Source: Halomonadaceae bacterium T82-2
Lineage (GTDB): Bacteria > Pseudomonadota > Gammaproteobacteria > Pseudomonadales > Halomonadaceae
Assembly (NCBI GenBank): GCA_001577635.1
Contig: LSBP01000001.1
Span: 248,001-312,000, forward strand
Length of the DNA stretch: 64,000 nucleotides
Reading direction: 5' to 3'
Part shown: piece by piece, positions 39,849-51,933 of the stretch
Layout: the number at the start of each line of letters is the position of its first letter
Numbering within the stretch: position 1 is the first letter of the stretch
The notes under the pieces: model-generated
The model's database searches: none
Told to the model about the DNA's origin: nothing
The model's input: only the letters and a program-made list of their open reading frames with translations
Program-made: the position numbers and the translations under genes

Positions 39849-40955
39849 ATGATGGAACAGCGCCTGAAACTGTGGGTCGGCATCGGCATGACCACCTTCC
39901 TGGGAGCCGGCGGCCAGGCGGCCCTGGCCCACAGTAGCGATCCCGCCGCCGACGAGTCCCACAAGGCCGAAATGGCCGTCGAATCGGGCGGCGAGAGGCA
40001 TCATGGCGGTGAAGGCGATGAGTCCCGCCACGGCGGCGAAGGCAGCGAGTCTCACCACGGCGGCGAAGGCGGCGAGTCTCACCACGGCGGCGAAGGCGGC
40101 GAGTCCGACCACGGCGGCGAAGGCGGCGAATCCGGTCACGGCGGCAAGGGCGGCGAAGCCCATCACGGCGGCGAAGGCGGCGAATCCGGCCACGGCGGTG
40201 AAGGTGGCGAAGGCGGTTCCGTCGGCTTCGTCTTCAGCCACTTCCCGGTGGCGGTCAGCGAGGGGGGCGAAGGCGGTGAAGGCGGCGATCAGCCCGCCCC
40301 CAGCGCCCTGACCTCGCCCGGCATCTACTACACCGAACTCGCCCTCATGGAGGGTCACCTGGCCAGTGCCGAGGCGCTCTATCGCAGCGGCCACGGCGAC
40401 CAGGGCGCGGCCCATCTCACCCACCCGCTGATCGAGCAGTACCCGAAGCTCGAGTCGGCGCTGGAAGCGCACGGCGAGGAGGCCCCGCTGGAGTCGGCCC
40501 TGGAAGCCCTCTCCGACAAGGCCGGCCAGACCGCCGACTGGGAGCAGCTGGCCCCCGCCGTGGCGAAGGCCCGCCAGGCGATCGACGCGGCCCAGGCCGA
40601 TGTCGCCGCCGAGACGCGCCAGTCCCCGCGCTTCATCGGCGACGTGACCCTGGCGCTGCTCAAGCAGGCCGCCGCCGAGTATGAGGAAGCCGTCAAGGAC
40701 GGTCGCTTCGCCAACGCCGCCGAGTACCAGGACGGCCGTGGCTTCGTGCAGGTCGCCACGCAGCTGTGGCAGGCCGGCGCGGACACCCTGGGCGGCGCCG
40801 ACGGCAAGGTCTACACCAAGGGTCAGGCCGAGCTGGAGGAACTGTCTCGCATCTGGCCCGAGGCCGTGCCGCCGGCCGAGCCGGTCAAGGCGCCGGGTGA
40901 GGTCTATGCGGAAGTCGCCCGCTTCGAGCTGGCGACCTCCGCTCTGCGTCACTGA
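39849..40955 (+). CDS. exported His/Gly/Glu-repeat protein, unknown function
   Basis: A 368-residue protein with a signal peptide (cleavage expected after AALA, residue 27). Residues 50-123 hold eight nine-residue units of the form G-E-S-x-H-G-G-E-G. The rest is helical (YYTELALMEGHLASAEALYRSGH, LLKQAAAEYEEAVKDG, GFVQVATQLWQAGADTL) and broadly recalls periplasmic helical-bundle metal proteins, but I cannot name the family. The repeat should bind divalent metal. The divergent PKHD oxygenase and downstream Dps suggest an iron-related job. GAGGG precedes ATG 39849. Confidence 0.7.
   Translation: MMEQRLKLWVGIGMTTFLGAGGQAALAHSSDPAADESHKAEMAVESGGERHHGGEGDESRHGGEGSESHHGGEGGESHHGGEGGESDHGGEGGESGHGGKGGEAHHGGEGGESGHGGEGGEGGSVGFVFSHFPVAVSEGGEGGEGGDQPAPSALTSPGIYYTELALMEGHLASAEALYRSGHGDQGAAHLTHPLIEQYPKLESALEAHGEEAPLESALEALSDKAGQTADWEQLAPAVAKARQAIDAAQADVAAETRQSPRFIGDVTLALLKQAAAEYEEAVKDGRFANAAEYQDGRGFVQVATQLWQAGADTLGGADGKVYTKGQAELEELSRIWPEAVPPAEPVKAPGEVYAEVARFELATSALRH
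39996..40217 (+). repeat. 27-base in-frame repeats encoding His-Gly-Glu units
   Basis: About eight degenerate 27-base units (GGCGAGTCTCACCACGGCGG type) lie in the exported protein gene. Two adjacent units are nearly identical, which points to recent duplication. Confidence 0.9.
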
Positions 40956-45096: not shown

Positions 45097-45126
45097 CCGC
45101 CGCCCCGGCCAAGACCGGGGCGGCGG
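45097..45126 (-). terminator. terminator-like hairpin after the cyd cluster
   Basis: A perfect 12-base stem with a six-base loop (CCGCCGCCCCGG-N6-CCGGGGCGGCGG) lies 24 bases after the small cyd gene. On the minus strand it is followed by CGTTTG, a poor T-run. Confidence 0.6.
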
Positions 45127-45149: not shown

Positions 45150-45344
45150 TCAGTAGTGGTCGTCGTGGCTCTCGTCGTAGCGGGCATCGATGATCGCCGT
45201 GCCGGCTGCGGCGATCAGCACGATCATCACCGTGCCCAGCACCCAGGCGAAATACCAGGCGCCGCGCTCGCCCAGCACGATGGTCAGGGCGATGGCCACC
45301 ACGGCGAGGAGCAGCCAGAAGAGGAAGAGCAGTATCTGTTTCAT
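45150..45344 (-). CDS. cydX: CydX-like bd-oxidase subunit with extra N-terminal helix
   Basis: A 64-residue protein directly after cydB. Residues 30-38, WYFAWVLGT, match the conserved core of CydX (WYFAWILGT in E. coli), the small subunit that stabilises bd oxidase. E. coli CydX has 37 residues and starts at that core. Here an additional hydrophobic helix (ILLFLFWLLLAVVAIALTIVL) precedes it. No good internal start with a ribosome site was found, so the long form appears genuine. A GGAG site precedes the ATG. Confidence 0.75.
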   Translation of the reverse strand: MKQILLFLFWLLLAVVAIALTIVLGERGAWYFAWVLGTVMIVLIAAAGTAIIDARYDESHDDHY

Positions 45345-45360
45345 GGTCCGGGCTCCGCAA

Positions 45361-46494
45361 TCAGTAGGCGTGTTCGTCGTGGGCGATCGATTCCGGCGTC
45401 ACCTTGCCGCGCATCACCCAGAACGCCCAGCTGGTATAGATGCCGATGATCGGGATGAAGATCGCGGTGAAGGCCAGCATCCAGCCCAGCGTACCCAGGC
45501 TCGAGGACGCATCCCACACGGTCAGGCTGTGGCTCGGCTCGCTGGACGACGGCATCAGGAACGGAAACATCGCCGCGCCCAGCGTGACCAGAGTGGCGGC
45601 CCAGGCCAGTGCGCCCAGCCACCAGGCCAGGTGCGAGAGGCCGGCGCGCGCCGCGACGATGCCACCCAGCACGGCCAGGTAGACGCTCGCCGGGACCAGC
45701 CACAGCGCCGGATGGGCGGTGTAGTTGGCCAGCCAGGCGCCGGACGCGGTTTCCACGGTCTTGTTGAGCGGCAGTGCCGGACCGGCCGGGTCGCCGCCCG
45801 CGGTGATCTCGTAGCCATGCATCATGGATACCCAGACACCACACAGGGTGAACACCGCCAGCGCCACCAGCCCGGCGATACTGAGCAGTCGGCAGGCGCG
45901 CTCGCGGATCACCCCGGTGCCGCGATTCATCACCATGGCGCCACCCTGATAGAGCGCCAGCGCCAGCGCCATCACTCCGCACAGTACGGCGAAGGGGTTG
46001 AACAGGCTGATGAAGCTGCCGGTGTAGTAGGAGACCATGTTCCAGGAGAAGTGGAACGGCACCCCCTCGAGCATGTTGCCCATCGCCGCGCCGAAGACGA
46101 TCATCGGCACCGCGCCGGAGATGAACAGCATCCAGTCCCAGGCGCCGCGCCAGCGCTCACCCGGCAGCTTGCTGCGGTACTCGAAGCCCAGCGGGCGCAC
46201 GATCATCGACCACAGCAGCACCAGCATCACCACATAGAGCCCGGAAAAGGCGGTGGCGTAGATGGTCGGCCAGGCGGCGAACACCGCCCCGCCGCCGAGG
46301 ATGAACCACACCTGGTTGCCGTCCCAGTGCGGGGCGATCATGTTGATCACCGCGCGGCGCTCACCGTCGGTGCGGCCCAGGTAGCGCAGCGCGGCGCCGA
46401 CCCCCATATCCATGCCGACCATCACCGCCAGGCCGATCAGCAGCACACCCAGCAGCACCCACCAGGTCACCTTGAGAAGTACGTACGGATCCAT
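45361..46494 (-). CDS. cydB: cytochrome bd ubiquinol oxidase subunit II
   Basis: A 377-residue membrane subunit with eight to nine helices. MDMGVGAALRYLGRTDGERRAVINMIAPHWDGNQVWFILGGGAVFAAWP is the CydB hallmark. It pairs with CydA to reduce oxygen at low tension. Its start lies three bases after the cydA stop. Confidence 0.96.
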   Translation of the reverse strand: MDPYVLLKVTWWVLLGVLLIGLAVMVGMDMGVGAALRYLGRTDGERRAVINMIAPHWDGNQVWFILGGGAVFAAWPTIYATAFSGLYVVMLVLLWSMIVRPLGFEYRSKLPGERWRGAWDWMLFISGAVPMIVFGAAMGNMLEGVPFHFSWNMVSYYTGSFISLFNPFAVLCGVMALALALYQGGAMVMNRGTGVIRERACRLLSIAGLVALAVFTLCGVWVSMMHGYEITAGGDPAGPALPLNKTVETASGAWLANYTAHPALWLVPASVYLAVLGGIVAARAGLSHLAWWLGALAWAATLVTLGAAMFPFLMPSSSEPSHSLTVWDASSSLGTLGWMLAFTAIFIPIIGIYTSWAFWVMRGKVTPESIAHDEHAY

Positions 46495-46497
46495 GGC

Positions 46498-48081
46498 TCA
46501 GGCCTCGCTCCACTGGGATGAATGTTGTTGACGGACCGAATCGGCATGCGCGTCATGCTTGCCCTCGCTCGGCCCCAGACGGATGAATTTCACCATCAGG
46601 TACATCTCGACGACGATGAACAGGCTGTAGAGCAGCACGAACCCGGTCAGCGAGAAGATCATGTAGCCGACGCTGTGGGTCGAAGCGGACAGCCAGGTCG
46701 GCAGCTGGCCGTAGACCGTCCACGGCTGGCGTCCCAGCTCGGCGACCACCCAGCCGGCCTCGTTGGCGATAAACGGTACCGGAATCATCCACGGCGCCAG
46801 GCGCAGGAACCAGTTATGCCGATGCAGGGTGCCACGCAGCGAGAAGATCACCGCCAGGATCAGGAAGGCCATCATCAGGAAGGCCGTCGCCACCATGACG
46901 CGGAACGACCAGAACACCGGCGCCACGGGCGGGATGGTGTCGGCCGCCGCCTTGGCGATCTGGGCATCGGTGGCCTGCGAAACGTCCTCGACGTAGCGCT
47001 GGACCAGCAGCGCGTAGCCCAGGTCGTCCTGATGGGCCTCGAAGGTGGCGCGTGCCTGGGCGTCGGTGGGGTTCTCGCGCAGCGTCTGCAGAGCGCTCAA
47101 CGCCGGGATGCCGTTGCGAATCCGTGTTTCGGCCTCGGCCACCAGATCATTCACCCCGGGAATCGACTCGTCGAAGGTGTGGGTGACCAGCGGCGTCAGC
47201 AGGTACGGAATCTGTACCTCGAAGTCGTTGCGCTGCTCCTCCTGGTTGGGCCAGGCGATCAGGTTGAAGCCGGCCGGGGCCTCGGCGGTTTCCCACAGCC
47301 CTTCCATGGCGGCCAGCTTGGTGGGCTGGGCGCCGCCGTTGATGAAGCCCAGGGCGTCGCCCAGCGAGATCACACCGATGCTGGCGAACACGCCGAACAG
47401 CGCGGCGACCCGGAACGAGCGCTTGGCCAGCTCGATGTGGCGGCGCCGCAGCAGGTAGAAGGCGCTGATGCCCAGCACGAAGATCGCCGCGGTCACGTAG
47501 CCGGCGATGCTGGTGTGGACGAACTTGGCCTGCGCCTCGGGGCTGAAGATCAGGTCCGGCAAGCTGGTCAGCTCCATGCGCATGGTGTCGGGATTGAACG
47601 CCGAGCCGGTGGGCTTCTGCATGTAGCCGTTGGCGATCAGGATCCACAGCGCCGAGAGGTTGGACCCCAGCGCCACCATGTAGGTCACCAGCAAGTGCTT
47701 GCCGCGCGACAGCTTGCCCCAGCCGAACAGCATCAGGCCGACGAAGGTCGATTCGAGGAAGAACGCCATCAGGCCCTCGATGGCCAGCGGCGCGCCGAAG
47801 ATGTCGCCGACGAAATGCGAGTAGGTCGACCAGTTGGTGCCGAACTCGAACTCCATGGTCAGGCCGGTGGCCACGCCCAGGGCGAAGTTGATGGCGAACA
47901 GCTTCGACCAGAAGTGGGTCATCTGCCGGTAGATGTCGCGCCCGGTGATGACGTAGATGGTTTCCATCGTCGCCAGCAACACCGAGAAGCCCAGCGTCAG
48001 CGGCACGAAAAGGTAGTGATACAACGCCGTGGCCGCGAACTGGAGTCGCGACAGCTCGATGACGGTGTCTAGTTCTTGCAT
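46498..48081 (-). CDS. cydA: cytochrome bd ubiquinol oxidase subunit I
   Basis: A 527-residue heme-bearing subunit. The b595 ligand His is near residue 20 (ALYHYLFVPLTLG). GRQPWTVYGQLPT and the quinol loop are present, and the length fits the long Q-loop type of E. coli (522). It oxidises quinol and conserves energy without pumping. An Anr/FNR-like site lies 110-120 bases upstream. Confidence 0.97.
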   Translation of the reverse strand: MQELDTVIELSRLQFAATALYHYLFVPLTLGFSVLLATMETIYVITGRDIYRQMTHFWSKLFAINFALGVATGLTMEFEFGTNWSTYSHFVGDIFGAPLAIEGLMAFFLESTFVGLMLFGWGKLSRGKHLLVTYMVALGSNLSALWILIANGYMQKPTGSAFNPDTMRMELTSLPDLIFSPEAQAKFVHTSIAGYVTAAIFVLGISAFYLLRRRHIELAKRSFRVAALFGVFASIGVISLGDALGFINGGAQPTKLAAMEGLWETAEAPAGFNLIAWPNQEEQRNDFEVQIPYLLTPLVTHTFDESIPGVNDLVAEAETRIRNGIPALSALQTLRENPTDAQARATFEAHQDDLGYALLVQRYVEDVSQATDAQIAKAAADTIPPVAPVFWSFRVMVATAFLMMAFLILAVIFSLRGTLHRHNWFLRLAPWMIPVPFIANEAGWVVAELGRQPWTVYGQLPTWLSASTHSVGYMIFSLTGFVLLYSLFIVVEMYLMVKFIRLGPSEGKHDAHADSVRQQHSSQWSEA

Positions 48082-48209: not shown

Positions 48210-50003
48210 TCACCGGCACTCGCCGCCGGCCTGCGGCAGGCTGTCGCAAGCCGTCTCGGCCAGGGGCGCCGGGCTCGTCAGCCCGGGGCTCGCCAGGCGT
48301 CGGTAGGTGGCGCAATCGCGCATCAGCGAGGCATGATCACCGCTCGCGATCGGCCGCCCGCGCTCGAGCAGCAACACTCGTTCGGCCAGACGCGCCCAGC
48401 CCGGATGGTGCGAGATCAGCAGCAGCGAACGCCCGGCGAGATAGCCGGCCAGATTCGCGCGCAGCCGCGCCGCGGTGGCGGTGTCGAGCCCCTCGCCCGG
48501 CTCGTCCATGATCACCACCGGGGCGTCGCGCAGCAGGGCGCGGGCAATGCCCAGCCGGCGGATCTGGCCGCCGGAGAGCTTGAGCCCCTCCTCGCCCACG
48601 ATGGTGTCGTAGCCCTCGGGCAGCGCCAGGATCTCCTCGTGCAGACAGGCCAGTCGCGCCGCCTCGACCATCGCCGCCTCGTCGGCCTCGGGATTGCCCA
48701 GCAGCAGGTTGTCGCGCACCGTGGCATGGAACAGGTAGATCTTCTGCGGCACCACGGCGAGGCGTGCCCGCAGGTCCTCGCTGCGGTAGGCCTCGACCGG
48801 CCGCCCGCCCCAGCGGATCTCGCCGCGCTCGGCCGGCATCAGGCGCAGCAGCAGCTGCGTCACCGTGCTCTTGCCGGCCCCGCTCGGCCCCACCAGCGCG
48901 ACATGCTCGCCGGGGGCGATGGTGAGGTCGAGATCCGTCAGCGCCCAGGGGCCGTCGGCGGTATGCCGTGCGCCGACGCCGGCGAAGCACAGGGTATCGT
49001 CCTCGGGCGGCGGCGCCGGCTCGGCGGGGTCGGTGACATTGGGCGCGAGCGTCTCGAAGGCCCGCAGCCGCCGCGTCGCCGCCCGCAGCTGTCCCAGGGC
49101 CTGCCAGGCGCCGGGCAGCTGGGCGATCGCCTCGAAGCAGCCCATGACCAGCAGCACCACCGGGGCGAAGTCGACCGCCGCCAGCCCCGGCCCCTGCACC
49201 AGCGGCACCATCAGCCAGGCGGTGACCAGCACGGCGAGGTTGGTGAGCAGCAGCACACCGGCGCCGGATAGCCCCGACAGGTGCGCAAGCCGCGCCTGGG
49301 CCGCCAGCCAGCGTCGGCTCAGCTCATGAATCTCCGCGCGGCGGCGGGGCATGTCGCCGAACACGCTCAGCTCGCCCAGCCCCTCGACCGCATCCACCAC
49401 GCCGGCCTTGAGTTCCGAGGCGATTGCCACCCCCCGGCGGCCCGGCTCGCGCCCGAGCCGCTCGGCCAGCGCCGGCAGGGCCACGCCCGCCAGCACCAGC
49501 AGCGCCAGATTGACCAGCGCCACCGGCACGCTGTAGGCAGCCAGCACCAGCACCGCGCCGCCGAGGCAGATCAGTGCCACCACGGCGGGCGTCAGCAGGC
49601 GCAGATAGACGTTGTCCAGGGTGTCGATGTCCGAGCGCACGCGCGCCAGCAGGTCGCCGCTACGCAACCCCTGCAACTGCTGCGGCGACAACGGCTCCAC
49701 CTGACGGTAGAACCACACCCGCAGGCCGGTAAGCAACCGCAGGGTGGCATCGTGGCTGACCAGCCGCTCGAGATAGCGCCCGCCGGTGCGGGCGATCGAC
49801 AGGCCGCGGATAAGCGCCGCCGGGGTGAAGTAGTTGAAGTCCGCCGCGGCGAGCCCCGCCGCCGCCATGCTGGCCAGGAACCAGCCGGACACCGCCAGCA
49901 GCGCCATGTTGGCGGACACGGTCACCACGCTGAGCAGGATGCCCAGCGCGAAGTAGCCCAGATAGGGACGGGCGATCGACAGCCACCAGCGCAGGTCGCT
50001 CAT
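48210..50003 (-). CDS. cydC: thiol reductant ABC exporter subunit CydC
   Basis: A 597-residue half-transporter: six helices, then an ATPase with Walker A VGPSGAGKST, signature LSGGQIRRLGIARALL and Walker B VVIMDEPGEGLD. With CydD it exports cysteine and glutathione (and perhaps heme) needed to assemble bd oxidase. Its ATG overlaps the cydD stop (ATGA). Confidence 0.93.
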   Translation of the reverse strand: MSDLRWWLSIARPYLGYFALGILLSVVTVSANMALLAVSGWFLASMAAAGLAAADFNYFTPAALIRGLSIARTGGRYLERLVSHDATLRLLTGLRVWFYRQVEPLSPQQLQGLRSGDLLARVRSDIDTLDNVYLRLLTPAVVALICLGGAVLVLAAYSVPVALVNLALLVLAGVALPALAERLGREPGRRGVAIASELKAGVVDAVEGLGELSVFGDMPRRRAEIHELSRRWLAAQARLAHLSGLSGAGVLLLTNLAVLVTAWLMVPLVQGPGLAAVDFAPVVLLVMGCFEAIAQLPGAWQALGQLRAATRRLRAFETLAPNVTDPAEPAPPPEDDTLCFAGVGARHTADGPWALTDLDLTIAPGEHVALVGPSGAGKSTVTQLLLRLMPAERGEIRWGGRPVEAYRSEDLRARLAVVPQKIYLFHATVRDNLLLGNPEADEAAMVEAARLACLHEEILALPEGYDTIVGEEGLKLSGGQIRRLGIARALLRDAPVVIMDEPGEGLDTATAARLRANLAGYLAGRSLLLISHHPGWARLAERVLLLERGRPIASGDHASLMRDCATYRRLASPGLTSPAPLAETACDSLPQAGGECR

Positions 50004-51754
50004 GCCGGCCCCTCCCCGTCGGCGCCGGCCACCAGCCGGGCATAGAGTCCGCCGGCGGCCATCAGGGCCTCATGGCTGCCCTGCTCGCGGATGCGCCCGC
50101 CGTCGAGCACCACGATGCGATCGGCGTGGCGCACGGTCGCCAGCCGATGGGCGATGATCACCAGGCTACGCCCCTGCCCCAGCGCCTCGAGCGCCTCGAC
50201 AAGCGCCCGCTCATTGTCGGAATCCAGATGCGCGCTGACCTCGTCGGCGACCACGAAGGTCGCCTCGCGGACCAGTGCCCGGGCGATCGCCAGGCGCTGC
50301 GCCTCACCGCCGGACAGGCGCACCCCGCGTTCGCCGAGGGGCGTGTCGAGCCCCTGCGGCAGCTCGGCGACCAGCGCCTTCGCCTGGGCCTGCGTCAGCG
50401 CCCGCCACAGGGCCGCATCGTCGATGTCGTCGCGCCCCAGGCAGAGGTTGTCGCGCACCGTGCCGAAGAACAGCCGCGGCTGCTGGGGCACCCAGGCCAG
50501 CGACTCGCGCCAGGTGTCGATGTCGAGCTCGTCGAGCGCCACGTCGTTGACCGCGAGCCGGCCCGCCTCGGCGCGCAACAGGCCCAGCAGCAGCAGCGCC
50601 AGGGTGCTCTTGCCCGCCCCCGAGGGGCCGACGATGGCCAGCGTCTCGCCCGGGGCGATGGACAGGTCGATGTCGGCGAGCGCCTGCACGCCGCCCGGAT
50701 AGGCGTAGGACAGCCCTTCCAGCGCCACCCGCGGTGGCTCGCCGGGCGTCAGGACGTCGCGCCGCGTGCCGCTCCAGGGCCGGGCCGAGGTGTCGAGCAG
50801 CTCGACGATGCGCTCGGCCGCACCCAGCGCCTCCATGCGGGCATGGTAGACGCTGCCCATGTTGCGCAGCGGCAGGTAGAACTCCGGCGCCAGCAACAGC
50901 ACCAGAAAGCCCGCCTCGAAGCCCAGCTCGCCCCACAGCAGGCGAAAGCCGATCAGCACGGCGACCATGGCGATGCTCACCGTGGCCAGGAACTCCAGCA
51001 CCAGCGAGGAGACGAAGGCCAGCCGCAGGACCTTCATGGTGCTGGCCCGGTAGTCGTCGGAGAGCCGCTCGATCAGCCGCGCCTCGCGCCGTCCCAGGTT
51101 GAAGACCTTGAGCGTGGTCAGCCCCTGCAGCGCGTCCAGGAAATGCCCCGACAGCCGCCCCATGCGCCGCCACTGGCGCTGGTTGAGCTTCTCGGCGCCC
51201 TTGCCGATGAAGATCATGAACACCGGGATCAGCGGCGCGGTGACCAGCAGGATCAGCCCCGAGACCCAGTCGATGGGCAGGATCACCGCGAGGATCGCCA
51301 GCGGAATCAGTGCGGCCAGCGCCGTCTGCGGCAGATAGCGGGCGTAGTAGGCCTCGAGGTGCTCGACGCCGTCGGTGACGCTGTTGACGATGTCGCCGGT
51401 CTGGGTGTCGCGCTGCCAGGCCAGCCCCAGCGCCTCGAGCTGGTGCATGAGCCGGTCGCGGATCGCCAGCTTGACCGTGGCGGCGGCGGCGAAGGCGCAG
51501 CGCTCGACCGCGTAGGTCAGCCCCGCACGCACCAGCAGGATCGCCAGCATGCCGGCGAAGGCCGGCCACAGGGTCGCCAGCGGCGTGCCCTGGAAGATGG
51601 CGCCGTCGGTGACGTGGGCGAGCAGGGTCGCCTGGAGGATCAGCAGCACGCCGCTGGCCAGACCCAGGCCGATGGCCCAGCTGACCGGCGTGCGCACGCG
51701 ACGGCTTTCCTGCTTGAGCCAGTCGCGGGGTCTTGCCGTGGTGGAAGTCTGCAT
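50000..51754 (-). CDS. cydD: thiol reductant ABC exporter subunit CydD
   Basis: About 584 residues: six helices and an ATPase (Walker A VGPSGAGKST, signature LSGGEAQRLAIARAL, Walker B TFVVADEVSAHLD). It is the partner of CydC. Start choice is weak: ATG 51754 lacks a clear ribosome site, and the track's TTG 51850 would add a nonhomologous lead. Family alignment would settle it. The order cydD-cydC-cydA-cydB-cydX on one strand unites assembly and structural genes. Confidence 0.92.
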   Translation of the reverse strand: MQTSTTARPRDWLKQESRRVRTPVSWAIGLGLASGVLLILQATLLAHVTDGAIFQGTPLATLWPAFAGMLAILLVRAGLTYAVERCAFAAAATVKLAIRDRLMHQLEALGLAWQRDTQTGDIVNSVTDGVEHLEAYYARYLPQTALAALIPLAILAVILPIDWVSGLILLVTAPLIPVFMIFIGKGAEKLNQRQWRRMGRLSGHFLDALQGLTTLKVFNLGRREARLIERLSDDYRASTMKVLRLAFVSSLVLEFLATVSIAMVAVLIGFRLLWGELGFEAGFLVLLLAPEFYLPLRNMGSVYHARMEALGAAERIVELLDTSARPWSGTRRDVLTPGEPPRVALEGLSYAYPGGVQALADIDLSIAPGETLAIVGPSGAGKSTLALLLLGLLRAEAGRLAVNDVALDELDIDTWRESLAWVPQQPRLFFGTVRDNLCLGRDDIDDAALWRALTQAQAKALVAELPQGLDTPLGERGVRLSGGEAQRLAIARALVREATFVVADEVSAHLDSDNERALVEALEALGQGRSLVIIAHRLATVRHADRIVVLDGGRIREQGSHEALMAAGGLYARLVAGADGEGPA

Positions 51755-51843
51755 AAGGGAGTGCGGGAACGTCAGTCGTCGGGGGAACAGGGAATCCGGC
51801 TTGGAGATTCTTTCACAACCGGTAAGCGGGATGGGCTTTCCCG

Positions 51844-51933
51844 GCGGCAAGCCTTCGCGAGGGCGCTGTAAACCCCTCCCTGGGCGCTACCTTTGCCATC
51901 CATGGCAAAGGACCCTCGCTTCGCCTTGTCCCC
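51844..51933. repeat. structured intergenic repeat, copy B
   Basis: A 90-base element in the gap upstream of cydD. It aligns with the reverse complement of the element at 19.1 kb: GGCAAGCC, GCGCTRTARAC, TCCCTGRGCGCTACC and a closing TTCG-CTTG-CCC block. The central hairpin here is TTTGCCAT-CC-ATGGCAAA, unlike copy A in sequence but still perfectly paired. Confidence 0.85.

Follow-up and report, generated by a model that had tools for sequence, protein, structure and literature searches.

The window, as we call the whole stretch of 64,000 nucleotides analyzed here (Halomonadaceae bacterium T82-2, contig LSBP01000001.1, positions 248,001 to 312,000), carries a cydDC-AB-X operon on its minus strand. 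In order of transcription, and in window coordinates, its parts are:

50000..51850, minus strand: ABC transporter gene in the cydD-like position (PF00005/PF00664; TTG start as listed, the true start may lie further in)
48210..50003, minus strand: ABC transporter gene in the cydC-like position (PF00005/PF00664; the C/D assignment of both transporter genes is inferred from gene order)
46498..48081, minus strand: cydA, long Q-loop type, 527 aa (PF01654, 2e-168; haem ligands H22, H189 and M396 kept)
45361..46494, minus strand: cydB, bd-I type, 377 aa (PF02322, 2.6e-88; TIGR00203, 1.2e-115)
45353..45356, minus strand: GGAG, Shine-Dalgarno-like, read directly from the sequence, with an 8-nt spacer to the cydX ATG
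45150..45344, minus strand: cydX, two-helix form, 64 aa, ATG start, MKQILLFLFWLLLAVVAIALTIVLGERGAWYFAWVLGTVMIVLIAAAGTAIIDARYDESHDDHY
45270..45341, minus strand: added N-terminal helix of CydX (TM1), codons 2-25, a helix in the AlphaFold2 model, variable and uniformly hydrophobic
45258..45269, minus strand: turn between the helices, codons 26-29, ERGA
45177..45257, minus strand: CydX core helix, codons 30-56, WYFAWVLGT...IIDARY, with partial TIGR02106 and PF08173 matches
45097..45126, minus strand: 13-bp GC-rich hairpin 3' of cydX, with no T-run after it, likely the end of the operon

Outside the operon, at 39987-40210, a 27-bp tandem unit is present in 8.3 copies within a plus-strand ORF and encodes HHGGEGGES-like His/Gly/Glu repeats; no Pfam family was found for this ORF.

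The small protein behind cydB had been described in a first-pass annotation as 64 residues long, with a CydX core that starts at residue 30 after a complete hydrophobic helix, and its coordinates, strand and length are correct. It carries the W-Y-F-x-W-x-x-G core (W30, Y31, F32, W34, G37) followed by an acidic residue near core position 25 (D53), and its gene lies directly behind the cydB of a long Q-loop cydAB pair (16-nt gap). Profile matches are confined to the core and stay below the cut-offs, both for Pfam YbgT_YccB (PF08173, residues 30-45, 17.7 bits against a cut-off of 26.2) and for NCBIfam CydX (TIGR02106, residues 30-54, 21.4 bits against 31.6). A sequence search of the PDB returned E. 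coli CydX (6rko_X, residues 30-44, E = 0.11) as its sole match. Canonical CydX begins at the core, as previously claimed, with a single Met ahead of it, whereas here 29 residues precede the core; the protein is therefore filed with a two-helix group rather than with canonical CydX. It is nevertheless confirmed as a genuine CydX that carries one more helix at its N-terminus. Because Pfam and NCBIfam matches reach only the core and remain sub-cut-off, automatic annotation likely misses two-helix cydX genes, which are easily left as hypothetical proteins. All five two-helix genomes in our phylum sample score between 19 and 22 bits with the NCBIfam CydX model. The CydX proteins of two gammaproteobacterial genomes, which start with MFYVTW instead of MWYFAW, also fall below the NCBIfam cut-off.

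Translation very probably starts at the upstream ATG, judging from the reading frame and its conservation. That ATG is preceded by the GGAG ribosome-binding site, and in nearly all two-helix relatives an ATG stands 28-29 codons ahead of the core Trp. Could the canonical core alone be made in vivo, by an internal start or by processing, with the upstream helix as annotation noise? GTG codons at positions 15, 16 and 23 offer possible starts, but ATG, GTG and TTG are all absent from codon 24 to W30, so that a start just before WYFAW is not supported. Codons 2-29 are moreover under purifying selection: pN is lower than pS in 14 of the 15 pairs compared (the counts are small, and the one exception turns on a single synonymous change) and dN/dS is mostly 0.18-0.6, a constraint weaker than in the core. 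Together with the conserved ATG position across families, these observations make a core-only product scarcely credible.

The closest relatives of the window CydX are found in Modicisalibacter tunisiensis (98% identity) and Onishia taeanensis (89%), followed by Salinisphaera hydrothermalis (71%, tblastn segment) and members of the Rhodanobacteraceae and Acetobacteraceae (about 45-55%); the form also occurs in proteobacterial MAGs, and it always lies behind cydB, a pattern that speaks against a chance reading frame. A survey of related operons gave a clean split between Met directly before the core and an added helix: the core is preceded by one residue in canonical operons and by 28-37 in most of the two-helix family, which has a few outliers with uncertain start choice, and no intermediate forms occurred among the operons compared. 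In an evenly drawn phylum sample of 399 genomes, canonical CydX scored over the cut-off in 94 and the two-helix form was present in five. Within the window's genus, all 14 genomes carry a CIO-type CydB and four of them have the two-helix operon in addition. A conjugative plasmid of Thioclava nitratireducens (NZ_CP019439.1, 4917-5129) bears cydAB with a two-helix CydX annotated as a hypothetical protein. The scattered distribution and this plasmid copy fit horizontal spread of the two-helix operon. The Thioclava operon is bordered by IS481 and IS6 transposase genes. ABC transporter genes stand 5' of cydA in the two-helix operons of Halomonadaceae and Salinisphaera, and in those of Rhodanobacteraceae and Acetobacteraceae large ORFs of ABC-gene size are seen 3' of cydX.

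The two-helix form itself is already described, and the window protein is a further member. Allen et al. (2014; PMC4325964) reported CydX homologs with an N-terminal extension that forms a second hydrophobic helix, grouped them in one CydABX 'grey' clade spanning Alpha-, Beta- and Gammaproteobacteria, aligned species including Acetobacter, Acidiphilium, Frateuria and Acidithiobacillus, and proposed horizontal transfer. The family described here matches that clade in the hydrophobic helix before the CydX core and in being a single clade across classes, and includes Frateuria and Acetobacteraceae members. Halomonas is absent from the main text of that paper, which, as far as it was searched, also says nothing of altered CydA quinol-site residues in the grey clade. 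Degli Esposti et al. (2015; PMC5322542) described two-transmembrane CydX-like proteins behind cydB, with a CydX-like second helix, which include those of the bd-I oxidases of acetic acid bacteria, as well as, in A. angustum and S. hydrothermalis, 77-aa proteins next to CIO-type oxidases. In the present data the S. hydrothermalis relative differs from the latter, being about 62 aa long and located beside a long Q-loop CydA. A search for literature from 2016 onward on two-transmembrane-helix CydX found none in the collection covered. Compared with E. coli CydX (bd-I) and AppX (bd-II), the window CydX shares the position behind cydB and, with CydX, the WYFAW(I/V)LGT core and an acidic C-terminal part. 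The E. coli proteins differ in having one helix, a Met1 immediately ahead of the core that forms a dimer contact, and a CydA partner with GDESGY and R298.

AlphaFold2 (24 sequences) models the 64-aa protein as two helices, residues 2-25 and 29-63, joined by a three-residue turn (mean pLDDT 79.6); a Foldseek search of this hairpin against the PDB gave no meaningful match. Across the two-helix family G25 and G28 are near-invariant, whereas conservation within the hairpin is lowest in the added helix (mean entropy 1.95 bits versus 0.77 bits for the core helix), though this helix has a weakly conserved face (helical periodicity, p 0.016). Canonical CydX is oriented N-out/C-in in the solved E. coli structure (PMC10470546), the reverse of what pre-structure papers assumed. 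Given this orientation and the short turn, the added helix should start in the cytoplasm and adjoin the core. We therefore predict a Nin-Cin helical hairpin, with which the mean charges (+0.8 at the head and -0.7 in the loop) are compatible. The charge rules permit, but do not favor, a cytoplasmic location for the acidic C-terminus.

The first helix might serve chiefly for insertion, as a signal anchor through which the membrane insertase can place the short N-out core as a hairpin, and make no specific contact in the mature complex. Its high sequence variability combined with uniform hydrophobicity, its positive N-terminus and the fixed Gly turn would suit such a role, and one-helix CydX has to export its N-terminus with no such anchor. 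That one-helix CydX works all the same argues against the need for one, and the nearly fixed length of the added helix, its persistence across families and its weak periodicity suggest packing. We consider a pure insertion role unlikely.

CydA sequences from 57 one-helix and 41 two-helix operons were aligned, the alignment being gap-free around the quinol sites; residues are given in E. coli numbering unless they are those of the window protein. E240, S241, Y243, I295 and R298 are present in all 57 one-helix CydA proteins. In the two-helix operons E240 is replaced by A or V, S241 by L or A, Y243 by F, R, V or E, and, in all 41, I295 by L and R298 by H. Neither Y243 nor R298 occurs in any of the 41; the window CydA has F246 and H301 instead. 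S233 is present in 50 of the 57 one-helix proteins and in none of the 41 two-helix proteins, which have A, G or C there. The two segments concerned in the window are:

47344..47376, minus strand: CydA G236-F246, GDALGF where E. coli has GDESGY (S233-Y243 segment)
47179..47196, minus strand: CydA T296-H301, TPLVTH where E. coli has GIIATR (G293-R298)

The neighboring residues D239, G242, K252 and E257 are unchanged in two-helix CydA, the haem ligands are kept (checked in 19 and 33 operons), and the long Q-loop is retained; in the window CydA the stretch equivalent to H186-M393 has 208 residues, the same as in E. coli. With these ligands, the long Q-loop, K252 and E257, the window CydA is of the bd-I type. 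Both forms are found within the Acetobacteraceae and within the window's own family, and in each the CydA has the residues that go with its CydX form. The Thioclava plasmid operon, which was found through its CydX alone, encodes a CydA with A233, A240, R243, T293, L295 and H298, although S241 is kept.

One-helix operons have 142 conserved CydA columns, and the two-helix operons depart from them in 10, six of 22 in the interval 220-304 and four of 120 elsewhere (Fisher p 0.001, a value that takes columns as independent for an interval picked once the first residues were known). By the same strict criterion none of 20 conserved columns is replaced in CydA 1-50 and none of six in 455-500, and CydB has two replacements in 68 conserved columns. 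On the CydX side, Thr38, the equivalent of E. coli Thr10, is invariant in the two-helix family and rare in one-helix CydX (2 of 20 non-redundant sequences). In E. coli, a ubiquinone between CydA and CydX is held by CydA S233 and CydX Thr10; activity is lost in the Y243A and R298A variants, the S233A enzyme has neither activity nor haem d, and R298 additionally binds a lipid where CydX forms the dimer interface (PMC13189123). The absence of Y243 and R298 as a mark of the two-helix clade appears to be new: no literature on these residues in the clade was found beyond 2026 work on E. coli, whose supplementary variation table may list it.

The first-pass annotation had also suggested that the added helix replaces another small subunit, CydH/CydY or YbgE, an idea that finds no support; in the case of CydH it fails on geometry, co-occurrence and the residue pattern. 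Like the added helix, E. coli CydH/CydY (YnhF) is a small hydrophobic helix of bd oxidase, but it occupies a different site on CydA, is encoded by an unlinked gene and has no sequence match here. The NCBIfam scan gave no NF033411 match for the window protein up to E = 1, whereas the E. coli YnhF control matched at 1.7e-13. E. coli CydX makes contact with helices 1 and 4-7 of CydA, and CydH lies opposite, in the TM1/TM9 cleft (PMC8951039); held next to CydX by a turn of three residues, the added helix could not reach the CydH site on the other side of CydA. For the helix to take over from CydH and block access to haem b595, one could cite the lack of a recognizable CydH in all 31 two-helix genomes and, under a looser criterion, class-specific CydA residues near TM9 (E. 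coli 466, 470, 471 and 486). However, only three of 49 one-helix genomes have CydH (NF033411 over the cut-off), and because the other 46 lack it too, there is no signal of an exchange. The strictly class-specific replacements lie on the quinol/CydX side and spare TM1 and 455-500, and no part of the hairpin is less conserved than the added helix. A role in place of CydH is thus highly improbable. The YbgE link was dropped, as weak YbgE-like matches (PF09600) are scattered over 11 of 14 genus genomes irrespective of CydX form; none was found in the window's genome. One genus genome has its YbgE-like match far from both of its cydB genes. The term 'fused', used for this CydX earlier, is apt as anatomy but not as history, since there is no sign that the added helix was ever a separate subunit.

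Our preferred reading, to which we assign a rough probability of 0.55, is that CydX forms a hairpin whose added helix packs on the outer face and caps or reshapes the dimer contact, in a monophyletic, horizontally spread bd-I subclass with a remodeled quinol site. The second helix would occupy the canonical CydX site with WYFAW at the periplasmic end and, by homology, stabilize the portion of CydA that carries the haems. The added helix would run antiparallel to it on the outer face, where E. coli CydX meets lipid or a second protomer. In E. coli, Met1-Trp2 and a leucine zipper of CydX make up the dimer interface (PMC13189123). As Met1 is absent and the added helix would lie on that face, the Met1-Trp2 contact between CydX subunits is predicted not to form in the same way; the helix may replace, cap or reshape this interface. 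The adjacent quinol site would be built of other residues, S233, E240, Y243, I295 and R298 being replaced. In the core helix of the two-helix form, the face used for the E. coli dimer showed no significant excess of conservation (p 0.30). Going further, these operons may represent an unrecognized bd-I subclass that keeps the long Q-loop, oxidizes quinol at a differently built site lacking Tyr243, Arg298 and Ser233, and has the extra helix in place of the CydX dimer contact that orders the Q-loop; we offer this tentatively, with the odds against it.

Two-helix operons form one clade in trees of CydB (support 100/100) and of CydA plus CydB built without the trait columns (100/99). The added helix and the quinol-site changes therefore count as one evolutionary event and are no independent proof of coupling; they may share a branch with no functional link. 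The direction of change is a separate matter, as an early long Q-loop oxidase could have passed on both the additional helix and these quinol-site residues of CydA, leaving the one-helix E. coli type with Y243 and R298 as derived. Histidine also stands in place of R298 in three of four CIO-type CydA proteins of the window's genus, and these proteins lack S233 and Y243 as well; the two-helix state may thus be the older one. In the best CydA plus CydB tree the one-helix operons form a clade, which an AU test on CydB does not reject (p 0.305), and two-transmembrane forms were proposed as progenitors by Degli Esposti et al. (2015; PMC5322542). Against this, the corresponding root has weak support (38/14) with a very long outgroup branch, and in the preferred CydB topology the two-helix operons fall within the one-helix ones. 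We rate this ancestry a little below even odds. It is an evolutionary alternative that is compatible with the hairpin mechanism proposed above.

Naturally provided with A, G or C at position 233 and devoid of Y243 and R298, the two-helix subclass tests the generality of the quinol-oxidation mechanism derived from E. coli and whether it would respond to inhibitors that were developed against the E. coli site. Its CydX is likewise a natural variant for probing the role of CydX dimerization. One Halomonadaceae genome encodes a one-helix CydX of unusual sequence, MWYFVWIVLVMLFALCAVLSAVVFDRQE, and its CydA keeps Y243 and R298 with Gly at the S233 position.
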